From positions 1 to 20,715 of the IMG/VR virus record IMGVR_UViG_3300043410_000971: a DNA stretch of 20,715 nucleotides. The stretch is one strand, 5' to 3'. Source of the stretch: a virus. A program made the position numbers and the translations under genes. How positions within the stretch are numbered: position 1 is the first letter of the stretch; every line of letters begins with the position of its first letter. The notes beneath the pieces were generated by a model, which was not told the origin of the DNA, made no database searches, and saw nothing but the letters and a program-made list of their open reading frames with translations. Positions 5,290 to 20,715 of this stretch are shown one piece after another.

Positions 5290-5318
5290 TTGACATTTAA
5301 CAATATCGGTTGTACAAT
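5290..5318 (+). promoter_or_regulatory. Sigma70-type promoter for the nuclease/ParB-like pair
   Basis: TTGACA (5290-5295), 17-base spacer, TACAAT (5313-5318). The expected start near 5325 gives a leader of about 24 bases before the ATG at 5349. It is the only near-consensus promoter seen in the first 11 kb, so it sets apart the two genes that follow. Confidence 0.75.
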
Positions 5319-14118: not shown

Positions 14119-16257
14119 ATGATTATCAATTCTGCCCCACAAAACGAAGCTGTTGCAAGTAACGTCGGTGAAATCGGCGAGTTTCGTATTCGCAATTCAG
14201 CTAAAGCATTCAACATCTTGAGTTCAGGTTTGTATGCTAACAAAATTCGTGCTATCATCCGTGAATTGTCTTGTAACGCTGTTGACAGTCACGTTGCCGC
14301 AGGCAAGCAAAACACACCCTTCGATGTGCATCTGCCTAACTCACTTGAACCTCACTTTAGTATCCGTGACTACGGTACAGGATTGACACATGACCAGGTC
14401 ACTAACATTTATACTACTTATTTTGAGTCAACTAAAACCAACTCCAACGAGTTCATCGGTGCGTTGGGTTTGGGTAGTAAGTCTCCATTCTCATACACCG
14501 ACAATTTCACTGTCACGGCAATTAAAGATGGTCGCAAAGGCATTTACACTGCTTTTATCAACGAGCAGGGCGTCCCCTCAATCGCATTGATGATGGAAGA
14601 AAAAACTACTGACCCAGCAGGTGTCGAAGTTAAGTTCTCTGTTAACGACCGCAACGACTTTAACAAGTTTGTACACGAAGCAAAAAGTGTTTACAAGTGG
14701 TTCAAGCAACAACCTGTAGTGTCCGGTGTCACTAGCTTTGAAGTTACAAAGCCTGTATACGAAACTGAAAACATCATTCCAGGTGTGAGCGTGATGAAAG
14801 ATGGCAAGTGTGTTGCTATCATGGGTAACATTGCTTATCCAATCGAAATCCCTCAAGGTCAAATTGAAAGTCGTGAGTTGAATTCATTGTTGTACTACTG
14901 TAGTTTGGCAATGGAATTTGATATCGGCGAACTTGACTTCCAAGCAAGTCGTGAAGGTCTGTCATACATTCCACAAACAATTGATGCTATCAAGCGTAAG
15001 TTGGAAGCTGTGAATAGTGTTCTGGCATCTTATATTGCGGCTGAAGCTGACAAGATTACTAACACTTGGGAACGTTCTTGGTTCTTGGCTTCTAAGAAGC
15101 AAACTCACTTGTGGCAGGCTGCTGTCAATAAGTACTGTGACGACACTAAGTTCCCGATGTGGGACAATCGTAGTTACTATGGTCATCAGTTCAAGTTGAA
15201 GACTGAGGACTTGCAAAAGAAGTACAACATGATTTTGCGTGGTTTTCATCGTAGTTCAGGTGCGAGTACTTTCTCTAATCTGAATTCTAGTTATGAATAT
15301 GACTACGACAACAAGGATCAAAACGGTCAGCCCACTCGTTATCAAACTTGGACTGTCGGTTCTACTAAGGATGTGATTTTTGTTATCAACGATACAAAAG
15401 TCGGTGCTACTGAGCGTTCTAAGTTTCACTATCGTAGTGAGAAGGGTGGTCAAACTGTTTACGTGATTGAACCATTCGACCGCACTAAGATTGTGAACAC
15501 TAAAAAGTTCTTTAAGGATCTTTACAATCCACCAAAGAACATGATTGTGAATGCAAGCGACTTGCGTGAGAAGCCTCGCAAAGATAGTTCTGTCGGTAAG
15601 AACGTGACTATCTTGCAATTGGAATCTCGCACACGCGGTGGCTGGCGTGATTGGACAACTTGGGTCTGGGCTGATGCTGGTAAAGCTGATACCTTTGACA
15701 AGAATGATACCCACTATTACTTGCCGCTGAGTGGTTTCCAATCTCTCGGTAAGTTCAGTGATGTGAAACAATTGCGTAAGCACTTGGAAGAATCTGGTGT
15801 GTTCAAAGGTACAGTCTATGGTGTTCGTAAGAGCGACATGGAATTTATCAACACCCAGAAAAACTGGGTCAACATTGATACAATGATTGCTGAGAAATTG
15901 GCTAAGTTGGACAATGCAAACATCATGGGTTTGGTCAAACAGGCTATTGACTATGGTGATGGTTTCAAGCATAATGTTGCTACATTAGTTGATGACAAGA
16001 GTCCTTACAGCGTGTTTGTAAAGACCTTCAGCAAAGTTGAGAAAGTTGACGCAAAGAAACAACAAAGTTTGGAAGCATTGTGTCGTGCTTATGATATCAA
16101 AAGTTCTGTCTCACCGGCAGCTATGATTGATAAGTACAAGCAAGAAGTACGAGATATCAAAGAGCGTTATCCGCTGTTGGATAGTTTGTACAGTAGTGTT
16201 AGTGCATACGCATTGGCAGAGTATATTAGTTTGATTGACGCAAAGAAAGGCGTGTAA
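14119..16257 (+). CDS. rIIA: rIIA-like protein with GHKL ATPase domain
   Basis: 712 aa, close to T4 rIIA (725 aa). The N-terminal third carries the GHKL nucleotide-binding boxes: N-box IIRELSCNAVDSH (E49, N53, D56), G1 RDYGTGLT (D84, G86, G88) and G2 FIGALGLGSKSPFSY (G114, G117, G119), all intact. The remainder (700-residue scale, with WERSWFLASKKQTHLW, VIEPFDRTKIVNTKKFFKDL, SPAAMIDKYKQEVRDIKERYP) is the long rIIA-type C-terminal part. In T4, rIIA and rIIB are membrane-associated proteins needed to resist exclusion by the RexAB system of lambda lysogens; their biochemical role is not settled. It has its own promoter and CACAGGAAC ribosome site and is followed one base later by rIIB. Confidence 0.9.
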   Translation: MIINSAPQNEAVASNVGEIGEFRIRNSAKAFNILSSGLYANKIRAIIRELSCNAVDSHVAAGKQNTPFDVHLPNSLEPHFSIRDYGTGLTHDQVTNIYTTYFESTKTNSNEFIGALGLGSKSPFSYTDNFTVTAIKDGRKGIYTAFINEQGVPSIALMMEEKTTDPAGVEVKFSVNDRNDFNKFVHEAKSVYKWFKQQPVVSGVTSFEVTKPVYETENIIPGVSVMKDGKCVAIMGNIAYPIEIPQGQIESRELNSLLYYCSLAMEFDIGELDFQASREGLSYIPQTIDAIKRKLEAVNSVLASYIAAEADKITNTWERSWFLASKKQTHLWQAAVNKYCDDTKFPMWDNRSYYGHQFKLKTEDLQKKYNMILRGFHRSSGASTFSNLNSSYEYDYDNKDQNGQPTRYQTWTVGSTKDVIFVINDTKVGATERSKFHYRSEKGGQTVYVIEPFDRTKIVNTKKFFKDLYNPPKNMIVNASDLREKPRKDSSVGKNVTILQLESRTRGGWRDWTTWVWADAGKADTFDKNDTHYYLPLSGFQSLGKFSDVKQLRKHLEESGVFKGTVYGVRKSDMEFINTQKNWVNIDTMIAEKLAKLDNANIMGLVKQAIDYGDGFKHNVATLVDDKSPYSVFVKTFSKVEKVDAKKQQSLEALCRAYDIKSSVSPAAMIDKYKQEVRDIKERYPLLDSLYSSVSAYALAEYISLIDAKKGV

Positions 16258-18911: not shown

Positions 18912-18940
18912 TTGACAAAAAATGTACATGGTGTTATACT
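18912..18940 (+). promoter_or_regulatory. Sigma70-type promoter of the NAD module
   Basis: TTGACA (18912-18917), 17 bases, TATACT (18935-18940). It starts directly after the preceding stop. A late-type element overlaps its start site (18944-18951). Confidence 0.85.
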
Positions 18941-18943
18941 ATG

Positions 18944-18951
18944 TATAAATA
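18944..18951 (+). promoter_or_regulatory. T4-type late promoter match (TATAAATA)
   Basis: TATAAATA is an exact match to the T4 late promoter consensus. It lies just downstream of the sigma70 -10, so both could serve the same gene at different stages. Chance matches are likely enough in AT-rich DNA to keep this tentative. Confidence 0.45.
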
Positions 18952-19003
18952 AGAGTAGCAGAGCGATAGACGCCGAGCAGACATTTATTGAAAGGATTTT
19001 TCA

Positions 19004-20023
19004 ATGTCAAAAGAATATGGTACACTTGTCCTCATTGGACGCTTTCAACCCTTGCACAATGCACACTTGGAGATTATCAAGCGTTGCACAGCATTGACTG
19101 ACCAATTGGTCATTATCGCTGGTTCAGCAAAACAACCCCGCACTTACAAGAACCCCTTCACTAGCCAAGAGCGTGAACAAATGATTAAGGCCGCAACCGG
19201 TGGCTTGAGTATGCGTATTTTCGTAGAAGAAAATATTGATACAATGTATAACGACCAAGCGTGGGCTGTGCGTGTTCAAGGTATCGTTAGCAAATACAAA
19301 ATCTTAGGCACAAAGACTGCTATCATCGGTCACAAAAAAGACGACTCAAGTTTCTACTTGGATATGTTCCCTCAATGGGATTATGTTGATGTGGAAGAAA
19401 TTGAACCACTCAGTGCAGTCAACATCCGTGACTTGTTTTTCAAAACCAGTTTCAATAGCAACTTCATTAAGAACGTTGTCCCACAAACTACTTACGACTT
19501 TTTGATGGCGTTCCGTCAGACTGAGGAATTTCAACAAATCATCCGTGAGCGTGAGTTTGTTGAAACATACAAAAAGCAATACGCAAGTTTGCCTTATCCC
19601 CCAATCTTCTCCACTGCTGACGCTGTGGTGATTCAATCAGGTCACGTGCTTATGATTAAACGCCGTGCTGAACCCGGTAAAGGTTTGTGGGCATTGCCCG
19701 GTGGTTATGTTAACGCCAATACTGACAAGTCAGTAGAAGATGCGGCCATTCGTGAGTTGCGTGAGGAAACAATGATTAAAGTGCCCGCACCCGTGTTGCG
19801 TGGTTCTATTGTCCGTAGCAAAGTCTTTGACGCTATTGACCGTTCACCTCGTGGTCGTATCATTACACACGCCTTCTACATTCAATTGCCCGATGGTGAG
19901 TTGCCAAAAGTAAAAGGCAGTGACGATGCTGAAAAAGCACGTTGGGTACCTATCGCAGAGATTAAATCGGAAGAATGTTTCGAGGATCACTACGAAATTT
20001 TGCAACACTTCTTGGGAGCTTAA
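19004..20023 (+). CDS. nadM: Bifunctional NMN adenylyltransferase / Nudix hydrolase (NadM-Nudix type)
   Basis: 339 aa, ATG with GAAAGGATTTTTCA upstream. N-terminal domain: GRFQPLHNAHL (12-22, the GxFxPxHxxH nucleotidyltransferase motif), IIGHKKDDSSFYLDMFPQWD, and SAVNIRDLFF (137-146, the ISSTxIR equivalent). C-terminal Nudix domain: KGLWALPGGYVN, then VEDAAIRELREET (244-256), with REx2EE kept but the Glu in the front part of the box not obvious. It would make NAD+ from NMN and ATP; the Nudix half is known in relatives to cleave ADP-ribose. KVP40 carries a protein of this kind (natV) with nadV. The macro-domain gene follows one base after its stop. Confidence 0.92.
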   Translation: MSKEYGTLVLIGRFQPLHNAHLEIIKRCTALTDQLVIIAGSAKQPRTYKNPFTSQEREQMIKAATGGLSMRIFVEENIDTMYNDQAWAVRVQGIVSKYKILGTKTAIIGHKKDDSSFYLDMFPQWDYVDVEEIEPLSAVNIRDLFFKTSFNSNFIKNVVPQTTYDFLMAFRQTEEFQQIIREREFVETYKKQYASLPYPPIFSTADAVVIQSGHVLMIKRRAEPGKGLWALPGGYVNANTDKSVEDAAIRELREETMIKVPAPVLRGSIVRSKVFDAIDRSPRGRIITHAFYIQLPDGELPKVKGSDDAEKARWVPIAEIKSEECFEDHYEILQHFLGA

Positions 20024-20024
20024 T

Positions 20025-20531
20025 ATGACAATCAATCCAGGTTCAATCGCAACGACTTACTTGAAACATGCACGAGGTAATATTCTCGACATGGCAGAAG
20101 CAGGTGAGTTTGACATTGTAGTTCAAGGCTGTAACTGCTACAACACAATGGGTGGAGGCATTGCTAAAGAGATTGCAAGTCGTTATCCACAAGCTGTTGA
20201 AGCAGACAATGCAACACAAGCAGGTAAGTTTGACAAAGTAGGTACCTATACTCATTCAGTAATTCCTCGTAATAAGAATGATGCATGGTTCTTGGTTAAT
20301 GCGTATACTCAATACACGATTAGTCGTGGTCAAGATGTTTTCGAATATCTAGGCTTTGAATTGTTGTTGTATAAGTGGGCAGGTTGGTTGCCCCAAGAAC
20401 GATGGGCATTCCCCTACATTGGTATGGGACTAGCAATGGGCGACCCACAACGAATCGTCCCAATGCTTGACAACTTTGCAAGAGTAATTAAAGAACATGG
20501 TGGCAGTGTCACTTTGGTAGAATTCGGTTGA
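20025..20531 (+). CDS. Macro-domain (ADP-ribose-binding / Appr-1''-phosphatase-like) protein
   Basis: 168 aa from the ATG at 20025, one base after the previous stop. Macro-domain segments in order: ARGNILDMAEAGEFDIVVQG (16-35), the substrate loop NCYNTMGGGIAKEIASRYPQ (37-56), KVGTY (71-75), and the phosphate loop FPYIGMGLAMGDPQRI (about residues 138-153). Family members bind ADP-ribose and remove ADP-ribosyl groups from proteins or nucleic acids, or hydrolyse ADP-ribose-1''-phosphate. Placed between NMN adenylyltransferase and nicotinamide phosphoribosyltransferase, it points to clearing ADP-ribose products while NAD+ is rebuilt. The exact substrate cannot be read from sequence. Its stop overlaps the next promoter -35. 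Confidence 0.88.
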   Translation: MTINPGSIATTYLKHARGNILDMAEAGEFDIVVQGCNCYNTMGGGIAKEIASRYPQAVEADNATQAGKFDKVGTYTHSVIPRNKNDAWFLVNAYTQYTISRGQDVFEYLGFELLLYKWAGWLPQERWAFPYIGMGLAMGDPQRIVPMLDNFARVIKEHGGSVTLVEFG

Positions 20532-20556
20532 CACAATAATTCTGTTGTGTTATACT
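20528..20556 (+). promoter_or_regulatory. Sigma70-type promoter of nadV
   Basis: TTGACA (20528-20533), 17 bases, TATACT (20551-20556). Overlaps the TGA of the macro-domain gene. Predicted start near 20562. Confidence 0.85.
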
Positions 20557-20566
20557 GAAAACAAGT

Positions 20567-20585
20567 CCTAGAGATAGACTCTAGG
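20567..20585 (+). promoter_or_regulatory. 5' leader hairpin of nadV
   Basis: CCTAGAG, loop ATAGA, CTCTAGG: a perfect seven-pair stem within about five bases of the predicted transcript start. There is no T-run after it. Such positions suit mRNA-protecting hairpins or a regulatory leader. Confidence 0.6.
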
Positions 20586-20611
20586 CAATTTGAAAATAAA
20601 GGAACTTTATT

Positions 20612-20715
20612 ATGAAACTCGCTAAAAACATTATCCTAAACACTGACTCATACAAAGTGAGCATGTTTAAACAATATCCAGTAGGAACTACAGGTGTATA
20701 TAGCTACATCGAATC
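20612..20715 (+). CDS. nadV: Nicotinamide phosphoribosyltransferase, 3' end beyond window
   Basis: Only the first 34 residues are present, cut by the right edge. ATG with AAAGGAACTTTATT upstream. The start ILNTDSYKVSMFKQYPVG, followed by GVYSYIE, matches the opening of NAMPT/NadV (compare TDSYKxxHxxQYP...VYSYFE). The enzyme joins nicotinamide with PRPP to give NMN, which the product of the gene at 19004 adenylates to NAD+. It is separated from the other two module genes by its own promoter and a leader hairpin, so the first step may be controlled separately. Confidence 0.85.
   Translation, partial: MKLAKNIILNTDSYKVSMFKQYPVGTTGVYSYIE

Follow-up and report, generated by a model that had tools for sequence, protein, structure and literature searches.

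An NAD+ salvage locus with an embedded macrodomain gene

The 3′-terminal 1.8 kb of the window (the whole 20,715-nt stretch of viral DNA that was analysed) contains, according to open reading frames and profile searches, a nadM-Nudix gene, a macrodomain gene (macro) and the 5′ end of nadV, all on the plus strand. The nadM-Nudix gene (19004..20023) encodes a 339-aa NMN adenylyltransferase fused to a Nudix domain of the ADP-ribose pyrophosphatase type (about 19616-20011). It is recognized by Pfam CTP_transf_like (1.4e-13) and NUDIX (3.8e-21) and by PHROG_395 (6.8e-80), and the solved bifunctional NMN adenylyltransferase/Nudix enzymes 2qjo (3.6e-89) and 2qjt align with it end to end. The macro gene (20025..20531) starts one base past the nadM stop and encodes a Poa1p-like macrodomain protein of 168 aa. 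The nicotinamide phosphoribosyltransferase gene nadV (20612..20715) is cut by the window end after 34 codons, which match NAMPT_N (3e-9) and PHROG_448 (2.9e-8); full-length nadV in relatives matches NAPRTase (7e-55) and NAMPT_N (1.4e-29). The gene order and domain calls of the initial annotation are borne out by Pfam, PHROG, 2qjo/2qjt and the predicted macro fold. The Nudix half, to which it had assigned a second task, retains its catalytic motif (RELREE) in the window, and RE-L-x-EE is kept in 67/67 NadM proteins; at the position of the first Nudix-box Glu, nearly all of 67 NadM relatives have Lys or Arg.

Phages reportedly reconstitute NAD+ through a NadV plus NadM pathway named NARP2, which is said to come from work by Osterman et al. 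in 2024. The gene content expected of NARP2 is present at our locus: a NadV with NAMPT_N and NAPRTase domains (the full gene being taken from relatives) and an adjoining NadM-type adenylyltransferase. NadV converts nicotinamide and PRPP to NMN, NadM carries NMN on to NAD+, and Nudix domains of the NadM type cleave NAD+ or ADP-ribose (reviewed in PMC9503650, PMC7824862). Judging from these domains, NadV and NadM form a predicted two-step route from nicotinamide through NMN to NAD+ of the NARP2 type, in agreement with the initial annotation.

A search for DNA-level similarity to named phages returned nothing useful. When 19004-20531 was compared with locus L087, DNA identity was 94% in macro and 83% in nadM; by eye, the C-terminal half of nadM is nearly identical and the N-terminal half diverged, a pattern that suggests recombination inside nadM.

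Promoters

A sigma70-like promoter (TTGACA, 17-bp spacer, TATACT) lies before nadM at 18912..18940 (+), 18912 being the first base of its −35 box, and another with the same boxes and spacing precedes nadV at 20528..20556 (+). In most loci a strong sigma70-like promoter precedes each of the two genes at a constant distance; for nadM, a match of at least 10/12 was found within 130 nt of the gene in 46/82 loci. No promoter above shuffled background, and no leader of its own, was detected for macro; since it lacks a promoter, the gene is predicted to be part of the nadM transcript. Its stop codon TGA (20529-20531) lies inside the −35 box of the nadV promoter (TTGACA, 20528). The same nesting was found in 26/49 loci with macro upstream of a nadV promoter, and likewise in the distant phage L173.

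Other near-perfect sigma70-like promoters (TTGACA, 17 bp, TATAAT/TATACT/TACAAT) occur in the window at 5290, 12906, 13356, 13877, 14059, 17287 and 17657, mostly before plausible genes such as rIIA at 14119. They mark early transcription units, and none of them carries the RNA leader described below.

Recurrence of the trio

The initial annotation suggested that macro should recur next to nadM and nadV in related phages. We collected 80 viral loci with NadM as a query, scored the order nadM > macro > nadV by BLASTP and collapsed the loci at 90% NadM identity to 50 clusters. The order was kept in 28 of the 43 clusters with nadV visible, and hence the arrangement is not due to chance; in the other 15 nadM and nadV had no macro between them, and a further 7 of the 50 clusters were not judgeable. 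The order is identical in L173 (333-kb contig). Long contigs carry one macro copy or none (one in 13/17), while nadV is present in 16/17. Four whole contigs of 240-354 kb (L047, L069, L078, L080) lack macro and keep nadM and nadV. Missing from the slot in 15/43 clusters and from these four contigs, macro is an accessory gene. Macro is present in 9 of 16 named phages with nadM, and in none of these (0/9) does it lie between nadM and nadV; usually it is distant from both, and it is near them in KP15 (~3.4 kb) and phiM12 (~1.5 kb from nadV). The trio is therefore a lineage-level variant: the suggested recurrence holds for most clusters and for L173, but not for the named phages.

The slot between nadM and nadV also hosts other genes. 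A NADAR gene replaces macro in Synechococcus phage B23 and in L084 (L088:6036-6563; L084:2585-3112). Because no NADAR was found in the 17 long phage contigs, the two are slot alternatives rather than partners there. In XacN1 a DUF1768 (NADAR) gene follows shortly past nadM. A Nuc_deoxyri_tr2 gene occupies the slot of L025 (6390-6920) and adjoins macro in L024 (6528-7001). In a larger NAD salvage island (L070:6028-9346; L107), nadM is followed by PnuC and a NadR-like protein, with macro and nadV further downstream. Overall, the slot tends to gather enzymes of NAD+/ADP-ribose metabolism, plus small genes with no assigned function.

Nucleoside 2-deoxyribosyltransferase-like genes (PF15891) repeatedly adjoin macro or nadV (L013, L015, L025, L024, L054, L062, L076; L122, L145, L155). 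Two slot genes without a Pfam match, L094:6042-6497 (X1) and L096:6124-6636 (GAP32; GAP32_113 = PHROG_25832), are candidate new ADP-ribose enzymes.

These distributions bear on the question of whether macro belongs functionally with its neighbours. It could be a general accessory gene of the T4 tk.4 type, brought here by cassette shuffling and having no tie to nadM or nadV. Macro is distant from nadM in 7/9 named phages that have both, many unrelated inserts occupy the same interval and homing endonucleases are active in the region, all of which would fit such a history. It accounts poorly for an order kept in 28/43 clusters and in distant L173, for a macro stop codon embedded in the nadV −35 box in 26/49 loci, and for a slot otherwise enriched in NAD/ADP-ribose genes, and we regard it as rather unlikely.

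The macrodomain protein

The Pfam Macro profile (PF01661) scores the window protein at 14 bits, below the cut-off of 22, which is passed by its relatives in L007, L010, L004 and phiM12. The protein matches PHROG_335 (8.5e-30), the family of T4 tk.4, and its predicted fold is that of a macrodomain (AlphaFold mean pLDDT 94). In a Foldseek search the ADP-ribose-1′′-phosphate phosphatase Poa1p accounted for the best six PDB matches, TARG1 and DarG came next, and tk.4 of Acinetobacter phage 133 was near the top among viral models. With dN/dS of about 0.15-0.2, macro is under purifying selection.

The window protein shares with Poa1p and T4 tk.4 the conserved CNC and GGGIA motifs, Poa1p being its best solved structural match and tk.4 its PHROG_335 relative. 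It differs from Poa1p in having only ~20% identity and in being known from its sequence and predicted fold; in a HMMER alignment, the Poa1p active-site residues His23 and Ser30 correspond to Gln34 and Thr41, and L173 has His at the former position. In DarG and TARG1 the lysine of the TK motif is catalytic. The window protein lacks this lysine (assigned to the TK motif in MtDarG): the aligned position is Gln96, conserved at 98% among 51 sequences. Given the Poa1p-like fold, the model favours free metabolites of the ADP-ribose-1′′-phosphate type over DNA or protein adducts as the substrate. Removal of ADP-ribose from DNA or protein, as a counter to DarT-like or other ADP-ribosyltransferases, would be in line with the presence of DarG and TARG1 among the next structural neighbours but is at odds with the conserved Gln96, and appears very improbable to us.

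A free metabolite could also originate from RNA repair. In that case macro would clear ADP-ribose cyclic phosphate or ADP-ribose-1′′-phosphate left by KptA/Tpt1, with NadV and NadM recycling the released nicotinamide. Poa1p, the closest solved fold, acts on that product, and RNA ligase and kinase genes lie near nadM in roseophages and Astolliot. We nevertheless consider this origin improbable, as no KptA above the cut-off was found in 17 phage contigs by a search whose control worked and which covered phage-encoded, not host, KptA; coupling to a phage-encoded KptA was rejected on this ground.

A covarying RNA leader shared by nadM and nadV

Aligning the regions between promoters and start codons revealed a feature absent from the initial annotation, a leader of ~50 nt common to nadM and nadV. 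It consists of a covarying stem, capped by an almost invariant GAUAGAC loop and connected through a short linker to a covarying Shine-Dalgarno hairpin that is followed by the start codon; the second hairpin holds AGGA in its loop beside the start codon. The nadM leader spans 18953..19003 (+), with the GATAGAC loop at 18965-18971 and the Shine-Dalgarno hairpin at 18989-19003, and scores 60.3 bits (E 1.1e-10) with a covariance model built from nadM leaders. The nadV leader spans 20561..20611 (+), with the loop at 20573-20579 and the Shine-Dalgarno hairpin at 20595-20611, and was recovered by the covariance model, by covariation and by an unbiased scan of viral contigs.

Both hairpins are supported by compensatory changes. 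The 29 nadV leaders have standard pairs in 95.5% of paired cells and 68 doubly compensated cells, compared with 18.3 +/- 3.4 in shuffles; the corresponding numbers of doubly compensated cells are 92 vs 30.7 +/- 3.8 for 27 nadM leaders, and 218 vs 59.6 +/- 6.5 for 64 distinct diverse leaders, whose alignment was fitted to the structure. In all three sets, 0/500 shuffles equalled the real alignment in paired fraction, in covariation score or in the count of doubly changed cells, and the covariation signal was lost when partners were slid by one to three columns. It is these slid-partner versions, not the shuffles, that control for relatedness of the sequences; the gap is very large. Neither the window leaders nor those of six relatives had an Rfam match at E<=1, and a search of the open literature, subscription papers being outside its scope, yielded no description of the element.

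Specificity and spread of the leader

The covariance model gave 143 matches in 100 loci (982 kb), all on the coding strand: 61 belong to nadV, 56 to nadM and 26 to a small gene that separates the leader from nadM. These small genes begin right at the leader. In a second set, made of 64 diverse nadV loci retrieved with an RcXuper query together with named phages (639 kb), 67/69 matches were located at nadM or nadV or immediately ahead of either gene. The loop sequence is GATAGAC in 142/143 matches of the first set and 52/69 of the second. Throughout whole contigs and named phages nothing else was found at E <0.1, except for an extra leader copy near nadV in G013; a match at L142:1020 (E 0.17) was taken as chance.

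A pattern scan of 2.9 million viral contigs, blind to gene content, also placed the leader almost only before nadM and nadV. Among loci retrieved with the first pattern, 76 of 81 matches precede nadV, one precedes a nadV truncated where its contig ends (MKLAK) and four are chance; a second pattern gave 32 matches (19 nadV, 10 nadM, 3 others). Matches of the two patterns away from nadM and nadV are chance, one contig-end case and one duplicate. Leader-bearing phages include those of Rhodobacter, Roseobacter, Xanthomonas and Synechococcus, and the isolates RcXuper, DSS3P8, MD18, DSS3_MAL1, LucasX and B23 have it before both genes. The leaders of BUCT-ZZ01 have GAAAGAC loops. Inheritance from hosts was considered and rejected, with the leader present in 0/20 bacterial nadV loci.

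In macro-less operons where nadV lies ~40-50 bases behind nadM (L033, L047, L053, L055, L067), nadV has no promoter and keeps the leader. Where nadV is divided into two ORFs, its second half carries a GATAGAC leader of its own, giving a broken gene whose translation start is duplicated (L066, L085, L171). Both situations are hard to explain by promoter conservation. A promoter-only cause of the conserved upstream sequence was rejected, as the other early promoters of the window have no hairpins and promoterless nadV retains them.

Several arrangements around the leader deserve a separate description. The gene that splits nadV encodes a GIY-YIG endonuclease (L066:7010-9650, L085:6363-9047, L171:3486-6164). 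Inserts between the leader and nadM (~330-580 nt before nadM in L024, L032, L034, L041, L058, L062, L066, L069 and L080) belong to several small accessory families, all starting with MS or MP, and the leader stays first in the operon. In L107:8321-9378, L156:2399-3478 and L152:2291-3478, two leader copies just before nadV flank a minus-strand gene for an endonuclease-like protein (304-309 aa), an arrangement that looks like an insertion at the leader with duplication of the element; the extra copies, which have no long plus-strand ORF, were set aside as duplicates. In the jumbo enterophages RaK2 (L102) and GAP32 (L096) a two-hairpin layout with loops TGATGTAG, CGTAGTAG and TGAAGTAG was seen by eye before nadM and nadV, and is perhaps a second class of leader element.

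Possible function of the leader

Since the second hairpin encloses the Shine-Dalgarno sequence and the leader persists before promoterless nadV, the leader probably acts on translation. Macro, located directly behind nadM, would share its leader control, and translation is probably the level at which the phage controls its NAD+ repair genes. Only NadM or NadV always accompanies the leader, which makes autogenous control or a pathway metabolite the simplest candidate cues.

A more specific version would make the GAUAGAC leader a new riboswitch class that reads a metabolite of the NAD+ pathway (NAD+, NMN, nicotinamide or ADP-ribose) and, upon host NAD+ depletion, switches translation of the rescue genes, macro included, i.e. 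a phage RNA sensor of abortive infection. We put this forward as a tentative idea, on balance doubtful. Alternatively, the leader may sense no metabolite and serve as a constitutive element of translation or mRNA stability, or as an operator for an RNA-binding protein (e.g. a CsrA-like one, with GGA in a hairpin loop). The AGGA displayed by hairpin 2 beside the start codon fits an operator, and the GAUAGAC loop offers little length for a binding pocket. A general element would, however, be expected before other genes too, where the leader is not found, and the hosts of leader-bearing phages include cyanobacteria and alphaproteobacteria, which to our knowledge mostly lack CsrA. A leader that senses no metabolite is a serious possibility that we hold to be somewhat short of probable.

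Proposed mechanism

We consider it fairly likely that the locus is an early-expressed, post-transcriptionally controlled phage NAD+-rescue regulon operating as follows. After NAD+ is split by host defences or phage reactions, NadV and NadM would rebuild it from nicotinamide. The macrodomain may convert ADP-ribose modified at the distal ribose (ADP-ribose-1′′-phosphate or an ADP-ribose-based signal) to ADP-ribose and feed it to the Nudix half, which would cleave it to AMP and ribose-5-phosphate, so that the signal is removed and precursors are returned. ADP-ribose would not be reused directly by NadV or NadM and could return via Nudix in the form of these two products. The leader would regulate translation initiation of nadM (with coupled macro) and of nadV on one common cue, most likely a pathway metabolite or else a protein that the phage produces or controls.

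Depleting NAD+ is a central defence of bacteria, and phages restore the cofactor; we found nothing on how they time or tune this repair. With a conserved RNA present on both repair genes in phages of very different hosts, the regulation of counter-defence can be tested directly, and the RNA provides a cheap marker for finding NAD+-rescue loci. If it does bind a metabolite, it would define a new, virus-borne class of riboswitch. The trio, in turn, poses a defined pathway question: do macro and Nudix together convert an ADP-ribose signal of the host to precursors fit for salvage?

Comparison with known systems

The leader resembles NAD+ riboswitches in gene context only. Like NAD+-I (nadA motif) and NAD+-II (pnuC motif) (PMC7297122, PMC7749635), it is a cis RNA that precedes NAD-metabolism genes and involves the ribosome binding site. 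Unlike them, it combines one hairpin with a 7-nt loop and a Shine-Dalgarno hairpin, before phage nadM and nadV. The tandem bulged stem-loops with a ACANCCCC bulge that define NAD+-I are not seen, there being no CCCC in either window leader and no Rfam match, and by inspection the layout, in which no three-helix pseudoknot was seen, appears to differ from that of NAD+-II, with its P1, P1a and pseudoknot with the RBS.

The initial annotation knew of no description of the trio as one system. The idea is partly prior, and what stands is the trio with macro in the slot, as a variant. Iyer et al. 2022 (PMC9503650) report, in the part of the text consulted, NADAR genes that neighbour NadM/NadV, and macrodomains that counteract ADP-ribose signals. 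Those loci and ours have an ADP-ribose-processing gene in an NAD+ salvage neighbourhood, the B23 NADAR gene being in the exact slot; in the window a macrodomain replaces NADAR, and the RNA leader is not described in that part of the text. Another phage NAD+ pathway, NARP1, includes the signal-degrading enzyme RyDEP, whose activity was demonstrated (PMC13232231). In both cases an enzyme degrading an ADP-ribose signal lies inside a phage NAD+-reconstitution operon, the role being predicted for the window; NARP1 is a different pathway (Adps/Namat), RyDEP has an unrelated RyR-domain fold, and our locus is known from sequence alone.

As far as the available account of NARP2 goes, the window locus shares with it both enzymes, adjacent and with intact motifs, and adds a macro gene behind nadM and a common RNA leader on both genes. 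Thus, NARP2-type NAD+ salvage and the T4 tk.4-type macrodomain are known parts; an accessory macro gene within a NARP2-type set is new, and the shared leader RNA was previously uncatalogued.
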